From: Collinsella tanakaei
GTDB taxonomy: Bacteria > Actinomycetota > Coriobacteriia > Coriobacteriales > Coriobacteriaceae
DNA: 64,000 bases
Assembly: GCF_016902615.1 (NCBI RefSeq)
Contig: NZ_JACJMB010000007.1
Location: 1 to 64,000, forward strand
Direction: 5' to 3'
Part shown: positions 39,039 through 49,499 of the stretch, one piece after another
Position numbering within the stretch: position 1 is the stretch's first letter
Layout of the letters: each line of letters starts with the position of its first letter
The notes under the pieces: model-generated
What the model was told of the DNA's origin: nothing
The model's input: only the letters and a program-made list of their open reading frames with translations
Database searches by the model: none
Position numbers and translations under genes: made by a program

Positions 39039-40250
39039 CTACAGCGCGAAGACCCGCGCCGTCACGCTGTCGGGCATGCCCTGGTCGTTCTTCACGGTCG
39101 CGTAGACCATGAACAGGTCGCAGGTTCCCTCGCTTGCCGGATAGTCGCCGTAGTCGAGCGAGCGGTCGGGGCACGCAATCATCCCGTAGGTCTGCGCGTC
39201 CGTATCGATCACGTAGTGCGACGAGCGGATCTTGACGATGTAGCGCGTCCCCTTGCCCGCCGGGCATGCAGCGGGCTCACGGCTGATGTACACATACGGA
39301 CCGCCCTCGCGACCGATAAAGGTGCCCATGTTGCCCAAGCTGCCGCTTCCGCTGTAGCTCGCCTCGATGGCGAACGCGAAGCTCGAGTTCATGTACACGG
39401 CCTCGAAGGGGTGCACACCGGCGGGCAGCACCAGCTGGTCTATCTGCTTGTAGGTGCCGTCACCCACATTGAGCGCGGTCATGCCGTAGTAGGTTCCCTC
39501 GTCAGCACGCACGCGCGGCGTGATCGTCAGGATGCCGTCGGATACCCGGGGCTGCGTGGCGAAGCGCCCGGGAGACTCCCACACGTCGCGCGGATCGTCG
39601 TCTCCCACCGCCCAGGCATAGCAATGGCTCGCCTCAGATGTGCGATCACCGGAAAGACTCGGCATCTTCTGCCAGAACACCGTCGAGCCCACCGCCGTGA
39701 ACATCGGCGGGTCCCAATCGGCGCTACCGCTGTCCAGCTCGACCGGATCGCTCGTCAACGTTCCATCGGCAAAGCTCGACGCCAAAAGCACCCAGGTCAG
39801 CGTCGAGTACTCCACCTCCAACCACGCGAACACCCCGTTGCCGCACCGGACATCGTGAAAGTCGTAGGTCCTCCCCCGAACCGGTGAGGAGACGAGCGTG
39901 ATGAGGTTGCCCGAGGTGAGCGACAGCACGCCGAGCGTATTGATGGAGGTGGCGGACTCCGGCGCCATCATAGCCGCCGACCACACGCCGTCGGTGTGAT
40001 ACAGAAGCGTTCCGAGCGGCAGGGTCCACGTGGCACTCAGCGTTGCGGCCGCATCGGCGCTGGCGTACTCGTCCAGCGCGTCGATGATCTGCGAATCGTC
40101 ATCGATTACCTGCGGCTCGCCGGTGTTGTCGTTCTCGTTGCCATCGTTGCAGCCGGCAAGCGAGACGGCAGCGGCCGTCGCAGCCGTCGCGGCTGCTCCG
40201 CCGATCAGAAACCGGCGCCGCGTCACGCCGTCTTTGCCGAACAGCTTCAT
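39039..40250 (-). CDS. Tat-exported lipoprotein, beta-propeller-like, function unknown
   Basis: 403 aa. The signal is a Tat type, TRRRFLIGGAAATAATAAAVSLAGC. The twin Arg and the LAGC lipobox together point to export folded and lipid attachment at Cys around residue 33. A polar, acidic linker follows. The body (70-403) has repeated WD/aromatic-glycine strand patterns (YDFHDVRCGNGVFAWLEV, FTAVGSTVFWQK, YAWAVGDDDPRDVWES, RYIVKIRSSHYVIDT) that look like a beta-propeller. No known enzyme motif is seen. ATG overlaps the stop of the TSCPD gene (TAATG), so it is coupled to it. It may serve in the redox cluster to its right, but this is only proximity. Confidence 0.72.
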   Translation of the reverse strand: MKLFGKDGVTRRRFLIGGAAATAATAAAVSLAGCNDGNENDNTGEPQVIDDDSQIIDALDEYASADAAATLSATWTLPLGTLLYHTDGVWSAAMMAPESATSINTLGVLSLTSGNLITLVSSPVRGRTYDFHDVRCGNGVFAWLEVEYSTLTWVLLASSFADGTLTSDPVELDSGSADWDPPMFTAVGSTVFWQKMPSLSGDRTSEASHCYAWAVGDDDPRDVWESPGRFATQPRVSDGILTITPRVRADEGTYYGMTALNVGDGTYKQIDQLVLPAGVHPFEAVYMNSSFAFAIEASYSGSGSLGNMGTFIGREGGPYVYISREPAACPAGKGTRYIVKIRSSHYVIDTDAQTYGMIACPDRSLDYGDYPASEGTCDLFMVYATVKNDQGMPDSVTARVFAL

Positions 40251-40513
40251 TACATCGCCCTCGATGCAGCCTCGGTGAGGGCGCGCGTCAGCTGGTCTGC
40301 ACACGACGTCTTGCGCGGACCGCAGGTGTTGCCCGCCAGAAGCTCAACGATGTGCTCGACCGGCTGGCCGGCAACGAGCTTGGAAACGGCCTTGAGGTTG
40401 CCGTTGCAGCCGCCCTCAAACGATACCGCCTCGATGGTCTTGCCGTCGTCGGTCAGGTCGACATGGATGGCGCGGGCGCAGACGCCACGCGGCTTGAAGT
40501 CAAGATGAATCAT
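40250..40513 (-). CDS. TSCPD-domain protein (TIGR03905 type)
   Basis: 87 aa. A small cytosolic protein with the TSCPD domain, named for ribonucleotide-reductase-like C-termini. The visible signature is FKPRGVCARAIHVDLTDDGKTIEAVSFEGGCNGNLKAVSKLVAGQPVEHIVELLAGNTCGPRKTSCADQLTRAL. Four Cys (two near GC-GN and CG-TSC) may hold a metal or cluster. ATG at 40513 is the likely start, since two small in-frame codons before it add little. The role is unknown; it is coupled with the Tat lipoprotein gene downstream. Confidence 0.85.
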   Translation of the reverse strand: MIHLDFKPRGVCARAIHVDLTDDGKTIEAVSFEGGCNGNLKAVSKLVAGQPVEHIVELLAGNTCGPRKTSCADQLTRALTEAASRAM

Positions 40514-40581
40514 CGGTACCTCTCTCAAATCGTGACGCCATTATACGGGTCGTGCTGCCCTGATACCCAGCGGCACCCCAA

Positions 40582-40620
40582 ATGACACAAACGGGGCGAC
40601 CCCTCACGGAGTCGCCCCGT
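40582..40620 (-). terminator. Terminator of the ferredoxin-AOR-cytochrome operon
   Basis: On the minus strand a 10-bp stem ACGGGGCGAC/GTCGCCCCGT is followed by TTGTGT. It lies 58 bp after the cytochrome gene. Confidence 0.75.
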
Positions 40621-40677
40621 CTTCATGCGCGCTGCATGTACGAGCGATGTCGATACCGCGCGCTTATCAGCGTGTGA

Positions 40678-41352
40678 CTACTCGGAAGCCTCGAACAGCA
40701 TCGGGGTAGTCCAGCCCTCGGGCACAGCGCCCGTCTTGCCGTCGCCCAGCTCCTGGACGACCCAGCCCTCGGGCACGCCGCCCTCGCCCTCCCAGGCACC
40801 GACCTGGTGGCAGCTCGCGCAGGTGAAGACGCTCTGGTCGTGCATCAGGTGGCAGGAGTTGCACTGCTGCACGCCGTGGTAATCGCTGTGCGGGTCGAAG
40901 CTCCAGTCGGCGGTGGAGGACTCGGTGGCGCCCGGCATCACGCCGGCCCCGGCGTGGCAGCCGCTCTGCAGGCAGAAGTCGTTGGAGAAGGCGACCTTCT
41001 CGAACGGCTGCGGGTAGTCGCCGGACAGCTGCACCTGGACCTCGTGCACCATCTGGGGCAGCGTGGCCTCATGGCAGCCGAGGCACTGGTTGTTCGCGGC
41101 GGCGCGGTGCTTGTAGACCAGCGAATCCGTGTCGTTCACGAACGTGTCGTAGTACTTGCCCATCGTGCTGTGGCAGATGGTGTCGCAGCACTCAGGGGTG
41201 GCATGCCAAGCCCAGCCGGCAACACCGATGACCGTCACGACGACGACCAGGGCGATGACGATGGGAAGGCGCTTGCCCTTCCAGTTGATCTTCTTCTTCG
41301 GAGCCTTCTCGGTGGCGGTGGCCTCCGTGGTCTCCTTCTTCTCGTCAGCCAT
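40678..41352 (-). CDS. NapC/NrfH-like membrane-anchored multiheme cytochrome c
   Basis: 224 aa. A single N-terminal helix (LPIVIALVVVVTVIGVAGWAW, about 29-49) anchors an extracytosolic domain with five potential haem c sites. Three are CXXCH: C90-C93-H94, C164-C167-H168 and C178-C181-H182. Two are CX4CH: C55-C60-H61 and C127-C132-H133. The CX4CH motifs are rarer but known in multihaem cytochromes. The first site has a nearby Met, as in NapC/NrfH. The C-terminal 35 residues are a Pro/Gly-rich tail. It is the third gene after the Tat ferredoxin and the AOR, 23 bp downstream, and probably passes electrons between the quinone pool and those partners. Confidence 0.88.
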   Translation of the reverse strand: MADEKKETTEATATEKAPKKKINWKGKRLPIVIALVVVVTVIGVAGWAWHATPECCDTICHSTMGKYYDTFVNDTDSLVYKHRAAANNQCLGCHEATLPQMVHEVQVQLSGDYPQPFEKVAFSNDFCLQSGCHAGAGVMPGATESSTADWSFDPHSDYHGVQQCNSCHLMHDQSVFTCASCHQVGAWEGEGGVPEGWVVQELGDGKTGAVPEGWTTPMLFEASE

Positions 41353-41375
41353 TGTGTTCTCCTCTCGAGCTGCGC

Positions 41376-43619
41376 TTAGGCACTCAGCGCCGGGTTGTCA
41401 CCGCAGTACTTCTCGAGCACGTGGTCGTACTTGCGCGTGCGCTCGTCGTACTTGGCGCCACCCTCGGTGAGCAGACCGAGCTCCTCGAGGTCGGCCTCCT
41501 GCTCGGTCAGGCCGAGGTCCTCCAGGCACTCCTTCGTCGGGCAGCCGAGCTCCTCGTCCCAACCGAAGCGCTTGTAGAGCATGGTAAGGGCCGTCTGCCA
41601 GTCCTCGCTCTCCATCTTGTCGGTGCCCTCGGTGAACGGCTCGATGTCCGGATCCTTGGTGAACGGCCACTCGGTGATGACGTCGTGGACGTTGCGGAAG
41701 TCGTTGCAGCCCATGTTGCCGTCAGCGTCGGTCATGCCGCGGGCGGTGTTGACGCGCTGGAGGGTCATGATGCGCTCGCCGGCCTTGTACAGGTCGTCGA
41801 TGGTGACCTCCTGGCCGGTGACCGCGGTGTAGAACTGGGCCTCGAGGTCCAGGTCGCCACGGTAGCTGCGGTCCTTGTCCGGAGCCATGGCCATCGGCCA
41901 CACCCAGTTGCACAGCGTCAGCGAGTCATGCAGGACGTCGGTGACGATGCACCACCACGCGAACTCGGCCTTCGCCTCGTTCATCGGGGTGTAGTTCTTG
42001 TCGGGGTCGACCGCGTCCTCGCTGCCCCACATCTCCGCGGCCATCTCCTTCTTGAGGTCGATGGGCAGGCCGCAGCCCTGGAAGTTGACGGCGGAGTGGA
42101 TCATGTCGTCACGGTTGAAGACCATGTTGTACAGGCCGCCGACCTGGGCGAAGCACTCGATGGCGTGATGGACCGGCCAGCCGCGGTAGTTGATCAGGCA
42201 GGAACGGGTGTCGTCGAACCACTTGGCGTCGTTCCACTTCTCCGTCCAGACAAGCGGGCCGTGCCCGAGCCAGGCGATGGGCTTGTTCTCGGTGTCGTTG
42301 GACGCGATGTCGGAGAGGATCTTGATGAACGGCGTGGGGTCGCCGGCCATGATCTGGTCGAAGCCGTACTCGGCGAACTGGTCGCCGAGCTCGCGCTCGA
42401 GGATGCCGTCCACATAGGTGTGGGCGATATCGCGGTAGAGCTGGGCATAGTTGCACCACAGGCCCAGATCGTCAACGACAGCCTGGATGAGCAGGTTGTA
42501 CAGGATGGACTGCTCGGTGAGCGTGCCTTCCTCGGTCGTGGTGCCGGGGACCTTCATCATGCTCTGCATGTAGCTGGAGAACGGGAAGTTCGGCACGCAG
42601 GTGTTGCCCATGGACTCGTAGCCGGTCATCTCGAGGATCTGCGGCTGCTTCACCTGGGCGTAGCAGCGCACGGGGCAGCCGTGGCAGCCGGCCATCTTGA
42701 CGGTGTACTTCTCAGCCTCGGGTCCGAGGTCCTTCGTGGACTTCATGCAGCGATAGCCCATGGTGTTGGGCTCATGCGGCTTCGGCTCGCCGGTCTCGAT
42801 GGGACCGCCCTCGGCGGCAGCCCAGTACAGACCCTTGCGGGCCGTCCAGCGGGAGCCCTTGTCGTAGTACTCGGCCCAGGACTGCTGGGTGGAGGGCACG
42901 ACATGGTTGTTGTTGGAGCCGATGACCTGGTCGATCATGTAGTCGGACAGGTCGGCGACCATCTGCGGGTCGGCGACGTTGACGCCCTTGGTGCCGCGCA
43001 CGACGACCGCCTTGACGTTCTTGGAACCGAGCACCGCGCCCAGGCCGGCACCCGCGGAGTGGCTGCGGGTGTTGATGACGCAGGCGTACGGAAGCAGGTT
43101 CTCGCCCGCCGGGCCGATGGCGGCCACGCAGACGTCGACGCCGTGCTTCTTGCACAGGGCCTCGTTGGTCTCACGGGTGCCCTTGCCCCACAGGGCGGAG
43201 GCGTCCTCGATCGAGATCTTGTCGTCATCGATGTAGATGTAGACCGGCTTGTCGGCCTTGCCCTCGATGATCAGGCCGTCATGGCCGGAGTACTTGAGCT
43301 TGGCGCCCAGCTGACCGCCGCAGTGGCAGTCGACGACCAGGTGGTCGGTCGTGAAGGTCGACAGGGTGGCCCAGGTGGAGCGGCCGGCCAGCGGCACGCC
43401 GGAACCGGTCAGAGGACCGACGCAGAGAACGGCCTTGTTCTCCTCGTCCATCCAGTCGACGCCGGCGGGCACCTCGTCGTACATGATCTTGTTGGCGAAG
43501 CCCATGCCACCGATATAGTCCTTCTGCATCGCCTCATCGGACTCTTCGGTGATCTCGCCAGTCGAAAGGTTGACACGGGCGATCCAGCCCATCCAACCGT
43601 AAGAGACGTTATCAGCCAT
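41376..43619 (-). CDS. Aldehyde ferredoxin oxidoreductase-family tungsten/molybdenum enzyme
   Basis: A 747-aa enzyme of the AOR family, which binds a bis-pyranopterin with W or Mo and one [4Fe-4S] cluster. It starts GWMGWIARVNLSTGEITEES. Pterin-binding segments GGMGFANKIMYDEV, VGPLTGSGVPLAGRSTW and DHLVVDCHCGGQLGAKLKYSG are present, as are AAIGPAGENLLPYACVINT and AGLGAVLGSKNVKAVVVRG. The cluster ligands are in MAGCHGCPVRCYAQ (near 310), with the fourth Cys in SLTLCNWVWP (near 570). It is about 130 residues longer than classical AOR. It has no Tat signal of its own. It sits 18 bp downstream of a Tat ferredoxin and is close to E. coli YdhV by context. Its natural substrate is unknown. Confidence 0.92.
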   Translation of the reverse strand: MADNVSYGWMGWIARVNLSTGEITEESDEAMQKDYIGGMGFANKIMYDEVPAGVDWMDEENKAVLCVGPLTGSGVPLAGRSTWATLSTFTTDHLVVDCHCGGQLGAKLKYSGHDGLIIEGKADKPVYIYIDDDKISIEDASALWGKGTRETNEALCKKHGVDVCVAAIGPAGENLLPYACVINTRSHSAGAGLGAVLGSKNVKAVVVRGTKGVNVADPQMVADLSDYMIDQVIGSNNNHVVPSTQQSWAEYYDKGSRWTARKGLYWAAAEGGPIETGEPKPHEPNTMGYRCMKSTKDLGPEAEKYTVKMAGCHGCPVRCYAQVKQPQILEMTGYESMGNTCVPNFPFSSYMQSMMKVPGTTTEEGTLTEQSILYNLLIQAVVDDLGLWCNYAQLYRDIAHTYVDGILERELGDQFAEYGFDQIMAGDPTPFIKILSDIASNDTENKPIAWLGHGPLVWTEKWNDAKWFDDTRSCLINYRGWPVHHAIECFAQVGGLYNMVFNRDDMIHSAVNFQGCGLPIDLKKEMAAEMWGSEDAVDPDKNYTPMNEAKAEFAWWCIVTDVLHDSLTLCNWVWPMAMAPDKDRSYRGDLDLEAQFYTAVTGQEVTIDDLYKAGERIMTLQRVNTARGMTDADGNMGCNDFRNVHDVITEWPFTKDPDIEPFTEGTDKMESEDWQTALTMLYKRFGWDEELGCPTKECLEDLGLTEQEADLEELGLLTEGGAKYDERTRKYDHVLEKYCGDNPALSA

Positions 43620-43637
43620 TGCGTTTCTCCCTCTACG

Positions 43638-44360
43638 TTACGCGATCTTGCCGCCGGCGACGAAGTCCTGCTCCTCGCTGACGAGCGGCAGCGGATTCTC
43701 CTGACGGGTTGGGCCGGAAGCGTGGTTGACGTCCTCCCACTCGACAAGCTCCAGGGCGCCGTTCGGGCACTGCTCGGCGCAGCGACCGCAGGCGATGCAC
43801 TTGGAAGACTTGCCGGTCACGGTGTTCACCGTGGGCATGTGCCACGGGCAGGCGGCAACACAGGTGCCGCAGCCGACGCACTTCTCGGGATCGACCTCAC
43901 GCACGCCGTTGTCGTTCGTGACGATGGCGCCGTGCGGGCAGGCGGTCTGGCACAGGGCGGTGGTGCACATGTGGCAGGTGCGGACATTCCACTCCATGGA
44001 GTAGTAGATGCCGTCGCCACTGCCGAGCTCGCTACCGTAGAAGTAGCCGTCGTTCACGTGGATGCGGGCAGCCGCCGGCTGCGCCACACCGTCGTTCAGA
44101 AGGGTGCAGCTCATCTCGCAGCGCTGGCAACCGGTGCACTTGGAGCGGTTCACCTTCAGCACGTGAGACGGGGTCGCATAGTAGTCGATCTTGCCCTTCG
44201 AACTCGTCGGAGCCGCTGCAGCGGAGTCGGGGAGCAGCCCCAGCGCCACCATGCTGGCCACGAACGCGCTCGATACCTTCACGAACCCGCGACGGGTGAA
44301 GAAGGAGTCGAGACGGTCCGCGCCGGAGCCCACATGCTCCAAAGCGGTGTTCTCTTTCAT
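43638..44360 (-). CDS. Tat-exported ferredoxin with four [4Fe-4S] motifs
   Basis: 240 aa. The N-terminal Tat signal is FTRRGFVKVSSAFVASMVALG, with an Ala-rich cleavage region near residue 48. Four cysteine clusters follow: CTGCQRCEMSC, CHMCTTALCQTACP, CVGCGTCVAACPWH and CIACGRCAEQCP. This is the DmsB/NrfC type electron-transfer subunit. GGGGGG lies 3-8 nt before the ATG. It is first in the operon with the AOR and the cytochrome, so it likely carries electrons between those two. The AOR lacks a signal and could be carried out on this one. An AT-poor gap of about 540 bp to the divergent radical SAM gene holds its promoter. Confidence 0.88.
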   Translation of the reverse strand: MKENTALEHVGSGADRLDSFFTRRGFVKVSSAFVASMVALGLLPDSAAAAPTSSKGKIDYYATPSHVLKVNRSKCTGCQRCEMSCTLLNDGVAQPAAARIHVNDGYFYGSELGSGDGIYYSMEWNVRTCHMCTTALCQTACPHGAIVTNDNGVREVDPEKCVGCGTCVAACPWHMPTVNTVTGKSSKCIACGRCAEQCPNGALELVEWEDVNHASGPTRQENPLPLVSEEQDFVAGGKIA

Positions 44361-44898: not shown

Positions 44899-46263
44899 AT
44901 GCTCTCTGAACGCTTGCTCTCGAAGACCATCGGTTTCGGCGCGACGCATCTGCTGCGCTCCAAGAACGCGGTCAGCCCCATGGTCCCCGCGCCGCAACAC
45001 GGTCATGAGTATCTGCTCTACGTGCACGTCCCGTTCTGCGACGTGCTATGCCCCTACTGCTCCTTCACGCGCTTCCCGTTCAAGGAGGACCTTGCACGCC
45101 GCTATTTCGAGGCCCTGCGCGCCGAGCTCAAGATGATCCACGACTTGGGCTACGAGCCGCCGAGCGCCTATATCGGCGGCGGCACGCCCACCATCATGAT
45201 GGATGAGCTCGAGCGCACCATCGACTACATGCGCGAGCTTTTCCCCACCATCAAGGAGGTCTCCAGCGAGACCAACCCGCCGCACCTCGACCGCAAGCGC
45301 CTGGAGCGCATCTCGCGCATGGTGCAGCGCTTCTCGGTAGGTGTCCAGAGCTTCGACGACACGCTGCTCAAGCGTATGGACCGCTACGAGAAGTACGGCA
45401 GCGCCGCTGAGATTGTCGAACGCATCCAGAGCGTCCATGACATGTTCGACACGTTCAACGTCGACATGATCTTCAACTTCCCCGGTCAGACCCCGGAGAT
45501 GATCCTGCACGATATCGACGTCTTCAAGACAACCGGTGCGAACCAGATCACCTACTACCCGCTCATGGCGTCGCCCGGCTCGGAGAAGCTCATGGAGACC
45601 TGCTTCCACGGGCAGGTCGACTACAGCCTGGAGAAGACGCTCTACAACACGCTCTTCGACCGCATGACCGCGCCCGTAAGCGAAGGGGGCGCCGGATTCT
45701 TTGCCACCGACGTCTACACGTTCGCCGCCGACCGCAACGCCATGATCGACGAGTACGTCGTGGACTACGCCGAGTACGTCGGCGCCGGATGCGGTGCGTA
45801 CTCGTTCCTCGACGAGCACATCTTCAACAACGATTCCTCGGTATCCGGCTATATCCAGCGCATCGAGAGCGGCAACATGAGCGTCGCCTCTTGCATCGAG
45901 ATGGGTCACGCCAACTGGAAGCGCTACCGCATGGGACGTGAGCTGTTCGGCCTGCGTCTCGACAACCGCGCTTGGCGCCGCGACTATGGCAAGTACATCC
46001 AGTACGACATGCCGATCGAGTACGGCTACCTCGCCGCGAACGGCGCGTTCGCCACGAACAACGCCGACGAGCTCACGCTCACACGCCGCGGACGCTACCT
46101 GGTCCTTGTCATGATGCGTCAGATCTTCATCGGCATGAACACCGAGCGCGATCGTCTGCGTACGCAGCTGCCGGCAAACGAGCGCAAGATGTTCTCGGAC
46201 TCCGCCGAGCGTCAGATCGCCGCCGCGCGTGCAGCCGATGCGGCGGAGCATCGCGCCAACTAA
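44899..46263 (+). CDS. HemN-like radical SAM protein (coproporphyrinogen III oxidase family)
   Basis: 454 aa. A radical SAM enzyme with the cluster motif FCDVLCPYCSF (CX3CX2C, about residue 50). It has GGGTPTIMMDELE, the substrate-side SSETNPPHLD, the RFSVGVQSFDD motif, and NVDMIFNFPGQT. These place it in the HemN/HemW/ChuW group. True coproporphyrinogen oxidation, haem handling (HemW) and anaerobic haem breakdown (ChuW/HutW) cannot be told apart here. The C-terminal 100 residues (ALGY... type) are divergent. ATG at 44899 follows AGGAGGT by 9 nt. It is divergent from the ferredoxin-AOR-cytochrome operon, which needs haem c. Confidence 0.82.
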   Translation: MLSERLLSKTIGFGATHLLRSKNAVSPMVPAPQHGHEYLLYVHVPFCDVLCPYCSFTRFPFKEDLARRYFEALRAELKMIHDLGYEPPSAYIGGGTPTIMMDELERTIDYMRELFPTIKEVSSETNPPHLDRKRLERISRMVQRFSVGVQSFDDTLLKRMDRYEKYGSAAEIVERIQSVHDMFDTFNVDMIFNFPGQTPEMILHDIDVFKTTGANQITYYPLMASPGSEKLMETCFHGQVDYSLEKTLYNTLFDRMTAPVSEGGAGFFATDVYTFAADRNAMIDEYVVDYAEYVGAGCGAYSFLDEHIFNNDSSVSGYIQRIESGNMSVASCIEMGHANWKRYRMGRELFGLRLDNRAWRRDYGKYIQYDMPIEYGYLAANGAFATNNADELTLTRRGRYLVLVMMRQIFIGMNTERDRLRTQLPANERKMFSDSAERQIAAARAADAAEHRAN

Positions 46264-46408: not shown

Positions 46409-46999
46409 CTACTCGATTTCCCCGCAGGCGCGCATGTACTCGTCGACGCGCTCGTCGCGCAGCGAGCAGTTCTCGGTGATGATGCAGTCGACGGACAGGA
46501 TCTCGCAGGTAAAGAGCTCATCGAGCTCCGCCTGCGCACGCTTCACGCGAATGAGATAGTCGCCGATCACCGCCTTGACCGCACAGGTGGCCAGAATCAG
46601 GGTGTACATCTTGGATGCCGGAACCCCACCCAGACGCTCCTTGATCTCGTCTTTCGTGATGGCGAGCGCTTCGGCGAACGTCTTGCCCGGCAGCATCTCG
46701 GCCAGCGCCGCCGCACTGCCGATGGCAGCCAGGCAACCGTGGCTCCTGAATCCCACCGGCCCGAACGTCTCGGTCTCAGGATCGATGACGGCAAACAGCT
46801 GCATCTGAACTGTGCCGCGCTTCTCCTTGCCCACGCTGCAGAAGGCGTTCGCGCCATCGGGCATGCCCCCGTTGGGGGTGTCGGCGATCAGGTCGAGCAG
46901 CTTATCGGAATACTCGGTGATCGGCGCGTCGTTTTCAATCTGATACATATCGGGGGTACGCAGGAAGGGCGTGTCCTCGGTCAGTTTCCGCTTGGGCAT
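46409..46999 (-). CDS. IscU/NifU-like iron-sulfur cluster scaffold protein
   Basis: A 196-aa scaffold of the NifU N-terminal type. A 50-residue N-terminal extension precedes the core. Cluster Cys are recognisable in ANAFCSVGKEKRG, FRSHGCLAAIGSAAALAEML and LILATCAVKAVIGDYL. After the core, a short tail carries extra Cys (LFTCEILSVDC, ENC). It would assemble Fe-S clusters for local proteins such as the ferredoxin and the AOR, but no SufS/IscS partner is in the window. It is 46 bp downstream of the unknown 259-aa gene on the same strand, so the two probably form one transcript. Confidence 0.84.
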   Translation of the reverse strand: MPKRKLTEDTPFLRTPDMYQIENDAPITEYSDKLLDLIADTPNGGMPDGANAFCSVGKEKRGTVQMQLFAVIDPETETFGPVGFRSHGCLAAIGSAAALAEMLPGKTFAEALAITKDEIKERLGGVPASKMYTLILATCAVKAVIGDYLIRVKRAQAELDELFTCEILSVDCIITENCSLRDERVDEYMRACGEIE

Positions 47000-47045: not shown

Positions 47046-47825
47046 CTACGGGTTCATCCCCTTCTCCACGCCGTACCATTCCGCCAACGCCTTTCCCTGG
47101 GCGTCGGACAGGTAGAGGGTGGAGTAGAAATACGGCTCGTTCATGCTCGTGCGCACCATATGGATGTCATCGAACGAACCGGACTGCTGCACCTGCTCGA
47201 ATACCTCGAGCGTCTTCGACTTCGCCCACAGGTACGGCGCGTTCATGAACGAACCGATCGACACGGGGCGCGGGTAGTTCTTCGACTCGCTGCGCACGAC
47301 ATCGACGAAGGTCGCAACCGCGCTGTTCTCAGCGGTCTGGTAGAGCGCGTGAGCGAAGCTGTGGGACATCAGCGCCTTGGAGTACAGGTAGATGCCCTTC
47401 TTGCCGAAGATAAGCACCAAATCGGTCACGTCGAGCTCGGGCAGCGGCTCGTCGGGAGAGACATCGGCCCCCTCCAGCTGGACCGTCAGCGGCTTGGGCG
47501 CCACCAGCTTGCCCATGGCCGGCGTATCCTCGGCATGCTCATGCGTCTCGATATAGGTGAGCACCTGCTCCTCGAACGCACGGCCATCCATGCCGGCGGG
47601 CGCGAGCGCAAGCTTGCGCCAGCGCGATGACTTCGTGAGCTTGCCCTCGTACGACCGCTGACGCACATCGGTCAGCGCCTCGTCCATGGCGCGGATGAAG
47701 GCGTTCTGGGCATGGATGCGCTCAAGCTCCTCGGGTGTGACCTCGGGAGCGCCGACAGGCGCCGCCGCGACCGCCTCGTTGTCGAGAGATGCGGGGCCGG
47801 CCAGCTCCTTAGACTGCTCCTGCAC
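47046..47825 (-). CDS. Unknown 259-aa protein near the redox cluster (possibly YdhW-like)
   Basis: A 259-aa soluble protein with a Glu/Ala-rich N-terminus and a conserved-looking middle and C-terminus: LDVTDLVLIFGKKGIYLYSKALMSHSFAHALYQTAENS, VRSESKNYPRPVSIGSFMNAPYLW, SFDDIHMVRTSMNEPYFYSTLYLSD. There is no signal peptide or metal motif. Its place next to a NifU-like scaffold and an AOR system recalls YdhW of the enterobacterial ydhYVWXUT operon, but I cannot verify the homology. The divergent neighbour is a membrane LuxR regulator. Confidence 0.6.
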   Translation of the reverse strand: MQEQSKELAGPASLDNEAVAAAPVGAPEVTPEELERIHAQNAFIRAMDEALTDVRQRSYEGKLTKSSRWRKLALAPAGMDGRAFEEQVLTYIETHEHAEDTPAMGKLVAPKPLTVQLEGADVSPDEPLPELDVTDLVLIFGKKGIYLYSKALMSHSFAHALYQTAENSAVATFVDVVRSESKNYPRPVSIGSFMNAPYLWAKSKTLEVFEQVQQSGSFDDIHMVRTSMNEPYFYSTLYLSDAQGKALAEWYGVEKGMNP

Positions 47826-47933: not shown

Positions 47934-49499
47934 ATGGGGGTAGAGGTGCCGCAACGCGAGGACAACCAGGCGATGCCGCCGATCTCGTTTGAGACCTACC
48001 GGGTTCTCATCCCCTCCATCGTGGGGCTCGCGCTCGCATCGACGACCATCAACATCGTCGTCCAGCAGGCGCATCGAACCACGGGCGCGGCGACGTTCAA
48101 CGGCACGTCCATGGTCATCGCCGCTCTCATGTGCGGGTGCCTCTTCTTGGCAACGCTCATGGTGAAACGATTCACGAAGCGATTCGTCTCGGTGTTCGTG
48201 CTCGCTTCCACGCATATCGCTGCGCTCTGCTGCCTCGCGCTCGCGCTGCTCTCCGCCCAGGGGACCCAAATCGCGTTCGAACTGTCCGTCATCCTGCAAA
48301 CCGGCGTCGCGCTCGGGTCCACCTTCCTCAAGTTCTACTGGCTCCGCAAGCTGCGCGGTACGTCCGCCCAGGCCGCAGTCATCGTCGTGTTTTGCGCACT
48401 CGCCCTCTCCGAGTTCATCACCTTCGTGCTTAGCTTCTCAAGCGAGGTCGTGTGGTACACCGCGGGTATGCTCCTCAGTTACGCGCAGTTCACCGCCGTT
48501 CGCGCATCCCGTGTGCTGGGCGCGGCGGGCGACCCCTTCCCCGCCGTGTCCGAGTCGTATTTCGGCACCAACGAGGACCGCTTCTCCAACCGCAGCTTCC
48601 TTGCCGTCGCTGCCCTTGGCATCTGGTGCATCTCCATCCCCATGGGCATGGGACTGGGCTTTTCCGCGGGAGACGCCATCTACATGAGCACCGTCCCCCG
48701 CTTCATGGTCCTGCTGTTCGTCGTCGGCGTGTCCCTCCAGTGGATCCGCTTCGGCCTTGCCTCGCGCATGCGCGCCATCACGACGAGCATCTGGGTCGTG
48801 ATGCAGATCTTCATCGCCCTGGGCGCCATCTTTTTCGCCGTGTGGCCCAAGACGGTCTCGGTCGGTGCCGCGTTCGTCATGAGCTCATCGCTCATCCTGA
48901 ATGCCTTTGTCTGGTATCTCACCATCGCGTTCATCAGCTTCGGCTGGCGCGACCCGTTTTACTACTGCTCGGCCGCCTGGATCGCCAAGACGATCCTGGT
49001 CATTGCCGGTATGCGCGTGGATGCCGTCATAACCCGCCTCATCCCCGATAACACCCCGGTCATCATCTCCATTATGAGCCTGTTCGTGCTCATAGCGGCG
49101 CAGGTCGTGTTTACCCGCCTGCTCGCCTCCCCCACCGAGCGCGCCGAGCGCCAGCAGGCGGCAGCTCCCGTAACCGAGGAGGATATCCGTCGCATCCCGC
49201 TCATGGGCGTGCTCGCCATCGCACCGCAGGAGCAGGCGCCCATGGTCCAGCAGACTCCCGACGTGCATATCGCCACCTCCGTCATGGAAATGGGTCAACG
49301 TTTCGGCCTTACCGGACGCGAGGTGGAGGTTCTCACCCTCTACGCACTCGGCCACACGCAAGCGCGCGTAAGCGAGGAACTGCAGCTTTCGCCGAACACG
49401 GTGCACACGCACATCAAGCGCATCTACGACAAGACGGATCTCCATTCACGCCAAGAGATCCTGGACTACATCGCCGAGTACGGAAGCCCCAAGCGCTAG
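47934..49499 (+). CDS. LuxR-type regulator with about 12 membrane helices
   Basis: 521 aa. A multi-helix membrane part (about 20-415; around 12 segments such as YRVLIPSIVGLALASTTINI, SMVIAALMCGCLFLATLMV and FSVILQT-like runs) is fused to a C-terminal LuxR HTH (about 455-515, FGLTGREVEVLTLYALGHTQARVSEELQLSPNTVHTHIKRIYDKTDL). This layout is a hallmark of Coriobacteriia (Eggerthella, Collinsella). Members are thought to sense a membrane or extracellular cue and control adjacent metabolic genes. The start codon (47934 or 47973) is not firm. It is divergent from the unknown 259-aa gene and may control that gene or the AOR system. Confidence 0.88.
   Translation: MGVEVPQREDNQAMPPISFETYRVLIPSIVGLALASTTINIVVQQAHRTTGAATFNGTSMVIAALMCGCLFLATLMVKRFTKRFVSVFVLASTHIAALCCLALALLSAQGTQIAFELSVILQTGVALGSTFLKFYWLRKLRGTSAQAAVIVVFCALALSEFITFVLSFSSEVVWYTAGMLLSYAQFTAVRASRVLGAAGDPFPAVSESYFGTNEDRFSNRSFLAVAALGIWCISIPMGMGLGFSAGDAIYMSTVPRFMVLLFVVGVSLQWIRFGLASRMRAITTSIWVVMQIFIALGAIFFAVWPKTVSVGAAFVMSSSLILNAFVWYLTIAFISFGWRDPFYYCSAAWIAKTILVIAGMRVDAVITRLIPDNTPVIISIMSLFVLIAAQVVFTRLLASPTERAERQQAAAPVTEEDIRRIPLMGVLAIAPQEQAPMVQQTPDVHIATSVMEMGQRFGLTGREVEVLTLYALGHTQARVSEELQLSPNTVHTHIKRIYDKTDLHSRQEILDYIAEYGSPKR

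Follow-up and report, generated by a model that had tools for sequence, protein, structure and literature searches.

What does an enzyme of the aldehyde oxidoreductase (AOR) superfamily do between a ferredoxin with a twin-arginine translocation (Tat) signal and a membrane-anchored multihaem cytochrome, and on which side of the membrane does it act? The question was raised by a three-gene unit of Collinsella tanakaei, located in the first 64,000 nucleotides of contig NZ_JACJMB010000007.1 (the window). All three genes lie on the minus strand and encode a Tat-signal ferredoxin with four [4Fe-4S] clusters (43638..44360), which is the YdhY-like small subunit (WorS), the AOR-superfamily catalytic subunit (41376..43619), which is a YdhV ortholog (WorL), and a Cgr1-like pentahaem c-type cytochrome anchored in the membrane (40678..41352). 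The intergenic gaps were 18 and 23 bp, with the cytochrome gene 23 bp downstream of the AOR gene, and a terminator-like hairpin of the same strand (40589..40622; 15-pair stem and T-rich tail) closed the unit behind the cytochrome gene, in agreement with the initial annotation of this DNA, which had placed the three genes here as one operon. The gene order and the tight spacing were identical in 20/20 named loci of Collinsella, Enorma and relatives, and all three genes were present in 25/25 Coriobacteriaceae loci examined, so the grouping is not due to chance. With a probability of roughly two in three, we consider the unit to be a variant of Ydh (YdhV/YdhY) that works through a cytochrome and belongs to Class V of the tungsten/molybdenum oxidoreductases (WOR), its catalytic subunit being co-exported with the Tat ferredoxin and reducing an external substrate.

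Export of the catalytic subunit would depend on its partner. The N-terminus of the ferredoxin, FTRRGFVKVSSAFVASMVALGLLPDSAAAA, contains a twin-arginine motif, a hydrophobic stretch and an Ala-rich c-region, and the predicted Tat signal region extends over 44208..44360, with TRRGFVK at 44277-44297. The segment FFTRRGFVKVS, including the twin arginine, was invariant in 21/21 ferredoxin orthologs, and the alignment showed that the 16 cluster cysteines were invariant over 14 relatives, E. coli YdhY included. The ferredoxin scored 184.7 bits against the YdhY model NF007382, below the cut-off of 213, and matched the small subunits of solved AOR structures (PDB 9mqx_E, 8c0z_C, 6x1o_B), each of which forms a complex with its large subunit. 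The catalytic subunit, composed of the Pfam domains AFOR_N and AFOR_C, exceeded the YdhV equivalog cut-off (NF007354/PRK09849, 973.6 versus 868 bits) and grouped in the tree with the Eggerthellaceae orthologs and YdhV, which places it in the YdhV clade to which Class V (clade 41) large subunits belong. Its AlphaFold2 (AF2) model, with a predicted template-modelling score (pTM) of 0.86, matched no structures other than those of AOR/BamB at E<=0.001. Since the protein begins straight at the catalytic domain (MADNVSYGWMGWIARVNL), it carries no signal peptide, as the initial annotation had stated, and none was seen in the Coriobacteriaceae ortholog set. A signal-less cofactor protein encoded with a Tat-signal partner is the combination characteristic of Tat hitchhiker transport, and a small subunit with a Tat signal and/or a transmembrane segment, here a predicted signal, is characteristic of Class V WORs.

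Class V WORs also possess an additional membrane-associated subunit, a position occupied in all loci by the one-helix pentahaem cytochrome. Hydropathy and the positive-inside rule placed a single N-terminal transmembrane helix at 41206..41268, which was also helical in the AF2 model, with a Lys-rich flank in the cytosol and the haem domain predicted outside. Five haem motifs followed on the same strand, namely CX3CH (CDTICH, 41170..41187, with C56, C60 and H61), CXXCH (41071..41085), CX4CH (CLQSGCH, 40954..40974) and two more CXXCH (40849..40863 and 40807..40821), and all five were invariant in 20 relatives. The five haems of the initial annotation are matched by five motifs, but haem occupancy at two of them is assumed because CX3CH and CX4CH are non-canonical. 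The first motif combines its unusual spacing with an Asp that was invariant in all orthologs (CDxxCH). This was the only cytochrome of its family in the source genome. It matched PF14537 and scored 94 bits (E 9e-27) against the Cgr1 model NF051471, whose cut-off is 340; by this profile it is a relative of Cgr1 and not a member.

The haem of c-type cytochromes is attached outside the membrane. Because of this, and because of the predicted outward orientation of the haem domain, an AOR in the cytosol could not use this cytochrome. In the proposed mechanism, the catalytic subunit would acquire its cluster and a bis-pterin cofactor of Mo or W in the cytosol, probably with the help of YdhW and a NifU-like protein encoded nearby, and would then dock to the ferredoxin, after which both would exit in the folded state through Tat on the ferredoxin signal. 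Outside, the AOR-ferredoxin complex would dock on the cytochrome, and electrons would pass from menaquinol through the haems, the four ferredoxin clusters and the cluster of the catalytic subunit to the Cys-ligated metal, where the external substrate would be reduced. Family searches found TatC, CcmEFABC, MenA, MenG and MoaA encoded in the source genome, with ccmE, F, A, B and C in one stretch. The initial annotation had already proposed that the AOR leaves the cell together with the Tat ferredoxin and is linked to the quinone pool, and the presence of Tat, cytochrome c maturation (Ccm), MenA and MenG lends both proposals indirect support.

By gene content, the AOR unit is coupled to cytochrome c maturation across the Coriobacteriaceae. 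All searches used the same single draw of 250 Coriobacteriia genomes, 50 of them Coriobacteriaceae. The AOR was found above the cut-off in 20 of these 50 genomes, all of which, and none of the others, had CcmF_C (Fisher p 2e-14, kinship ignored). On the TopA tree, the joint AOR/CcmF state required six parsimony changes, at least three of which were forced by well-supported branches, and the AOR/CcmF-negative genomes G025 and G119 were close kin of positive ones. The AOR-CcmF link was weak in the Eggerthellaceae, where the AOR neighbourhood contains no cytochrome (33 genomes with both, 4 with AOR only, 12 with CcmF only and 5 with neither; p 0.12). The AOR and ccm genes were on separate contigs in the source genome, but in several other genomes they shared a contig at a distance of about 14 to 154 kb. 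TatC and MoaA were also tried as markers and were rejected as non-discriminating, since TatC is nearly universal in Coriobacteriia, occurring in 50/50 Coriobacteriaceae, and MoaA occurred in 44/50.

Two further genes on the minus strand may be connected with the loading of the enzyme. The first, at 47046..47825, encodes a YdhW homologue that scored below the cut-off of its model (NF007411, 103.3 bits, E 1.6e-29; cut-off 203) and that, over 153 aa, is 28% identical to E. coli YdhW (E 2e-19). It contains no cysteine motif. The second, at 46409..46999, encodes a NifU_N-like protein (PF01592, 62.7 bits). Alignment to NifU structures showed that, of the three canonical scaffold cysteines, only the middle one is kept, and the family alignment revealed a conserved C-terminal Cys motif of its own; with two canonical cysteines lost and this motif present, the protein is not an ordinary scaffold. 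Both genes lie near the AOR gene in 20/20 of the named loci of Coriobacteriaceae and in almost every Eggerthellaceae locus. They overlap by 4 bp in many Eggerthellaceae, and in five they form a single open frame, NifU-like-YdhW (L069:8340-10124, L077:8291-9994, L078:8365-10152, L082:3788-5719 and L087:8420-10063). E. coli YdhV was purified in an inactive form without a functional [4Fe-4S] cluster, and a cofactor chaperone for it is not known (PMC9103625). Taken together with the gene pairing and fusion, this suggests that YdhW may act before export as an assembly factor, together with the NifU-like protein in systems that encode one. It is quite possible, at somewhat under even odds, that the two instead serve the cluster in a structural or regulatory role and take no part in assembly, the NifU fold having been reused, as the loss of two of the three scaffold cysteines, the presence of YdhW in E. 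coli with no NifU-like gene in the ydh operon, and the finding that the YdhW profile matched none of the solved structures would allow. Against this, the pair is conserved near the AOR in both families, often overlaps and is fused in five Eggerthellaceae genomes, and both proteins lack signal peptides and the kind of redox motif that an electron carrier would have. We also put forward, tentatively and a little short of an even chance, a stronger proposal in two parts: YdhW would be a dedicated maturation factor for YdhV-type enzymes, working with a degenerate NifU-like protein to insert the [4Fe-4S] cluster or the bis-pterin and holding the enzyme until Tat transport, and the enzyme would be the main or sole client of Ccm in Coriobacteriaceae, a "one-enzyme extracellular respiration".

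The active site of the catalytic subunit points away from aldehydes. The cluster ligands C312, C315 and C319 (42663..42686) and the fourth ligand C570 (41910-41912), which correspond to C307, C310, C314 and C558 of YdhV, were invariant in 20/20 sequences, as was C341 (42597..42599), the predicted protein ligand of Mo or W and the equivalent of YdhV Cys336, of the BamB Cys322 type; all are encoded on the minus strand. According to a review, YdhV Cys336 is a further protein ligand of the metal that BamB has as well, and the second-shell residues of aldehyde-converting AORs are absent (PMC12096430). A Cetobacterium relative from the same clade converted none of 46 aldehydes (PMC13328260). An aldehyde-oxidising site has no protein ligand to the metal, and because the YdhV/BamB-type cysteine is invariant here, "aldehyde oxidoreductase" is a family label rather than a probable activity; judged from these residues, aldehyde oxidoreductase chemistry is unlikely. 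The aldehyde and carboxylate chemistry suggested by the initial annotation accordingly found no support. Reduction of carboxylates with menaquinol as the donor is thermodynamically uphill, and it was set aside for this reason.

The same exported complex could in principle run in reverse, as an extracytoplasmic dehydrogenase passing electrons from an external substrate through the ferredoxin and the haems into the menaquinone pool. The architecture of the unit is direction-neutral, and with menaquinone as the acceptor the oxidation of aldehydes is strongly favourable. AOR-family members of known function are mostly aldehyde oxidases (PMC13328260), but this direction is nevertheless unlikely in view of the metal site, which has a Cys ligand as in the reductase BamB, the missing second-shell residues and the inactive clade relative described above, and of the control of E. 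coli ydh by FNR, NarL and NarP, which resembles that of alternative reductases as far as Partridge 2008 is cited in PMC4549865. Outward electron flow to an acceptor is favoured because Cgr1 and cytochromes of the NapC/NrfH type, which are the closest characterised relatives of the pentahaem cytochrome, probably serve reductases, to which they normally supply electrons (PMC5953540), and because the metal site is BamB-like. As to the metal, E. coli YdhV prefers Mo and the Cetobacterium relative W (PMC13328260). No candidate for the tungstate-uptake protein TupA was found at the sensitivity used, in a search that did not cover ModA; the only PF12849 protein of the genome was rejected as TupA and read as PstS because pst-type genes come after it. 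Mo is somewhat more likely than W, and the "tungsten" of the initial annotation is left without support.

Comparison with the Eggerthellaceae showed that the third subunit of the system differs between the two families. In 28/28 Eggerthellaceae loci, a YdhY-type ferredoxin with a Tat-type RR motif was encoded divergently, directly beside the AOR gene, and in 27/28 a molybdopterin oxidoreductase and NrfD were found next to that ferredoxin, the exception being a contig end. The pentahaem cytochrome was present in 0 of these 28 loci, and NrfD or the molybdopterin subunit in 0/25 Coriobacteriaceae loci, so that NrfD in the Eggerthellaceae is swapped for a Cgr1-like cytochrome in the Coriobacteriaceae. 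Two YdhV-type genes lay near each other in the same Eggerthellaceae genome (L077, G246; L074, G226). The divergent ferredoxin also explains the earlier description of YdhV in Eggerthella and Gordonibacter as standing alone, which had led to its prediction as a cytoplasmic protein (PMC4257093); the stand-alone view is corrected here. That the AOR of our unit stays in the cytosol with another electron carrier, while the ferredoxin alone is exported to serve the cytochrome, would agree with the missing signal peptide, with the cytosolic location of classical AORs and with that earlier prediction, but it is quite improbable given that the Tat ferredoxin is an AOR-type small subunit encoded with the AOR in every Coriobacteriaceae locus, that the supposedly absent Eggerthellaceae ferredoxin lies next door, and that an enzyme standing alone in the cytosol would have little reason to track Ccm as this AOR does.

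Co-export as a cytochrome-linked Ydh variant fits the known systems to different degrees. Class V WORs have been defined by the Tat signal of the small subunit, with a periplasmic orientation inferred and Collinsella listed (Putumbaka et al. 2026, PMC13328260), and our unit resembles clade 41 in its signal-less large subunit, its Tat-signal small subunit and at least one further membrane-linked subunit. It differs in that the same paper gives the Coriobacteria a transmembrane subunit and an unknown pyranopterin subunit, which fits the Eggerthellaceae, whereas a Cgr1-like pentahaem cytochrome is found here. For the YdhYVWXUT system of E. coli, a periplasmic catalytic subunit has been predicted (Ravcheev and Thiele 2014, PMC4257093). 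Identity to E. coli was 52% for YdhV, about 40% for YdhY and 28% for YdhW, and homologues of all three occur together, the YdhY and YdhW matches lying below their equivalog cut-offs. The system is thus homologous to Ydh and not just analogous, so that the comparison made in the initial annotation was right but understated for three of the six components. Unlike in E. coli, no YdhX, YdhU or YdhT was present near the cluster, and a c-type cytochrome takes the place of YdhU, itself a predicted membrane cytochrome. YdhY of E. coli K-12 (L058:9852-10478) reads TRLEF with a lipobox-like LLGC and has no RR, and YdhX has a clear Tat signal; for this reason, export of E. coli YdhV may depend on YdhX. 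In Cgr1/Cgr2 of Eggerthella lenta, a multihaem cytochrome with one helix, from the same superfamily as ours, stands beside a Tat-exported reductase, and electron flow from quinol through haem to the exported enzyme has been proposed (PMC5953540), but the partner there is a flavoenzyme, in contrast to the YdhV-type metalloenzyme and ferredoxin here. BamB, a subunit of class II benzoyl-CoA reductase, has the same fold and likewise an additional cysteine bound to the metal (PMC12096430), but it works in the cytosol as part of a multi-subunit complex, and its sequence is only distantly related to that of the catalytic subunit.

Several points weigh against export of the complex and reduction of an external substrate as proposed. 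The structure models were AF2 monomers with no complex, and that of the cytochrome, built with 20 close orthologs, reached a predicted local distance difference test (pLDDT) score of 45, too poor for fold comparison. The Fisher value for the Coriobacteriaceae counts related genomes, which are non-independent points, and some of the joint losses of AOR and ccm may be single deletions because the two are loosely linked on one contig. The search for other Ccm clients covered the pentahaem cytochrome's own family, the menaquinone pathway was checked by MenA and MenG only, and the direction of electron flow itself counts as a further point of doubt.

The Class V export idea, including Collinsella, is already published (PMC13328260). 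The new elements are the exchange of NrfD for the cytochrome, the lockstep with Ccm, and the pairing and fusion of YdhW with the NifU-like protein, for which we found no earlier report in a search that left out most subscription journals. Class V enzymes have so far no assigned substrate or activity, though the clade is common in gut bacteria. Lockstep inheritance with Ccm makes Collinsella a natural test bed, in which closely related species, one carrying the module and one lacking it, can be compared in what they respire or transform. A need for YdhW may account for the inactive, clusterless state of purified YdhV (PMC9103625), and the stalled enzymology would become tractable.

Other genes accompany the cluster. 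On the plus strand, 47934..49499 encodes a membrane-bound LuxR-type protein with a GerE domain and about nine predicted helices, the probable regulator of the cluster. Its gene adjoins the YdhV cluster in most loci of both families, and it is possibly a sensor of the enzyme's substrate. Behind the terminator, the region 39039-40528 encodes a Tat-type lipoprotein without a known family and a TSCPD-domain protein, both kept in most Coriobacteriaceae loci. A radical S-adenosylmethionine (SAM) gene similar to HemN/HutW (44899-46263, above the PRK08629 cut-off) lies between the NifU-like gene and the ferredoxin gene, as it does in some relatives; it was considered as a haem-linked part of the system and rejected, since it occupies this position in only some loci.

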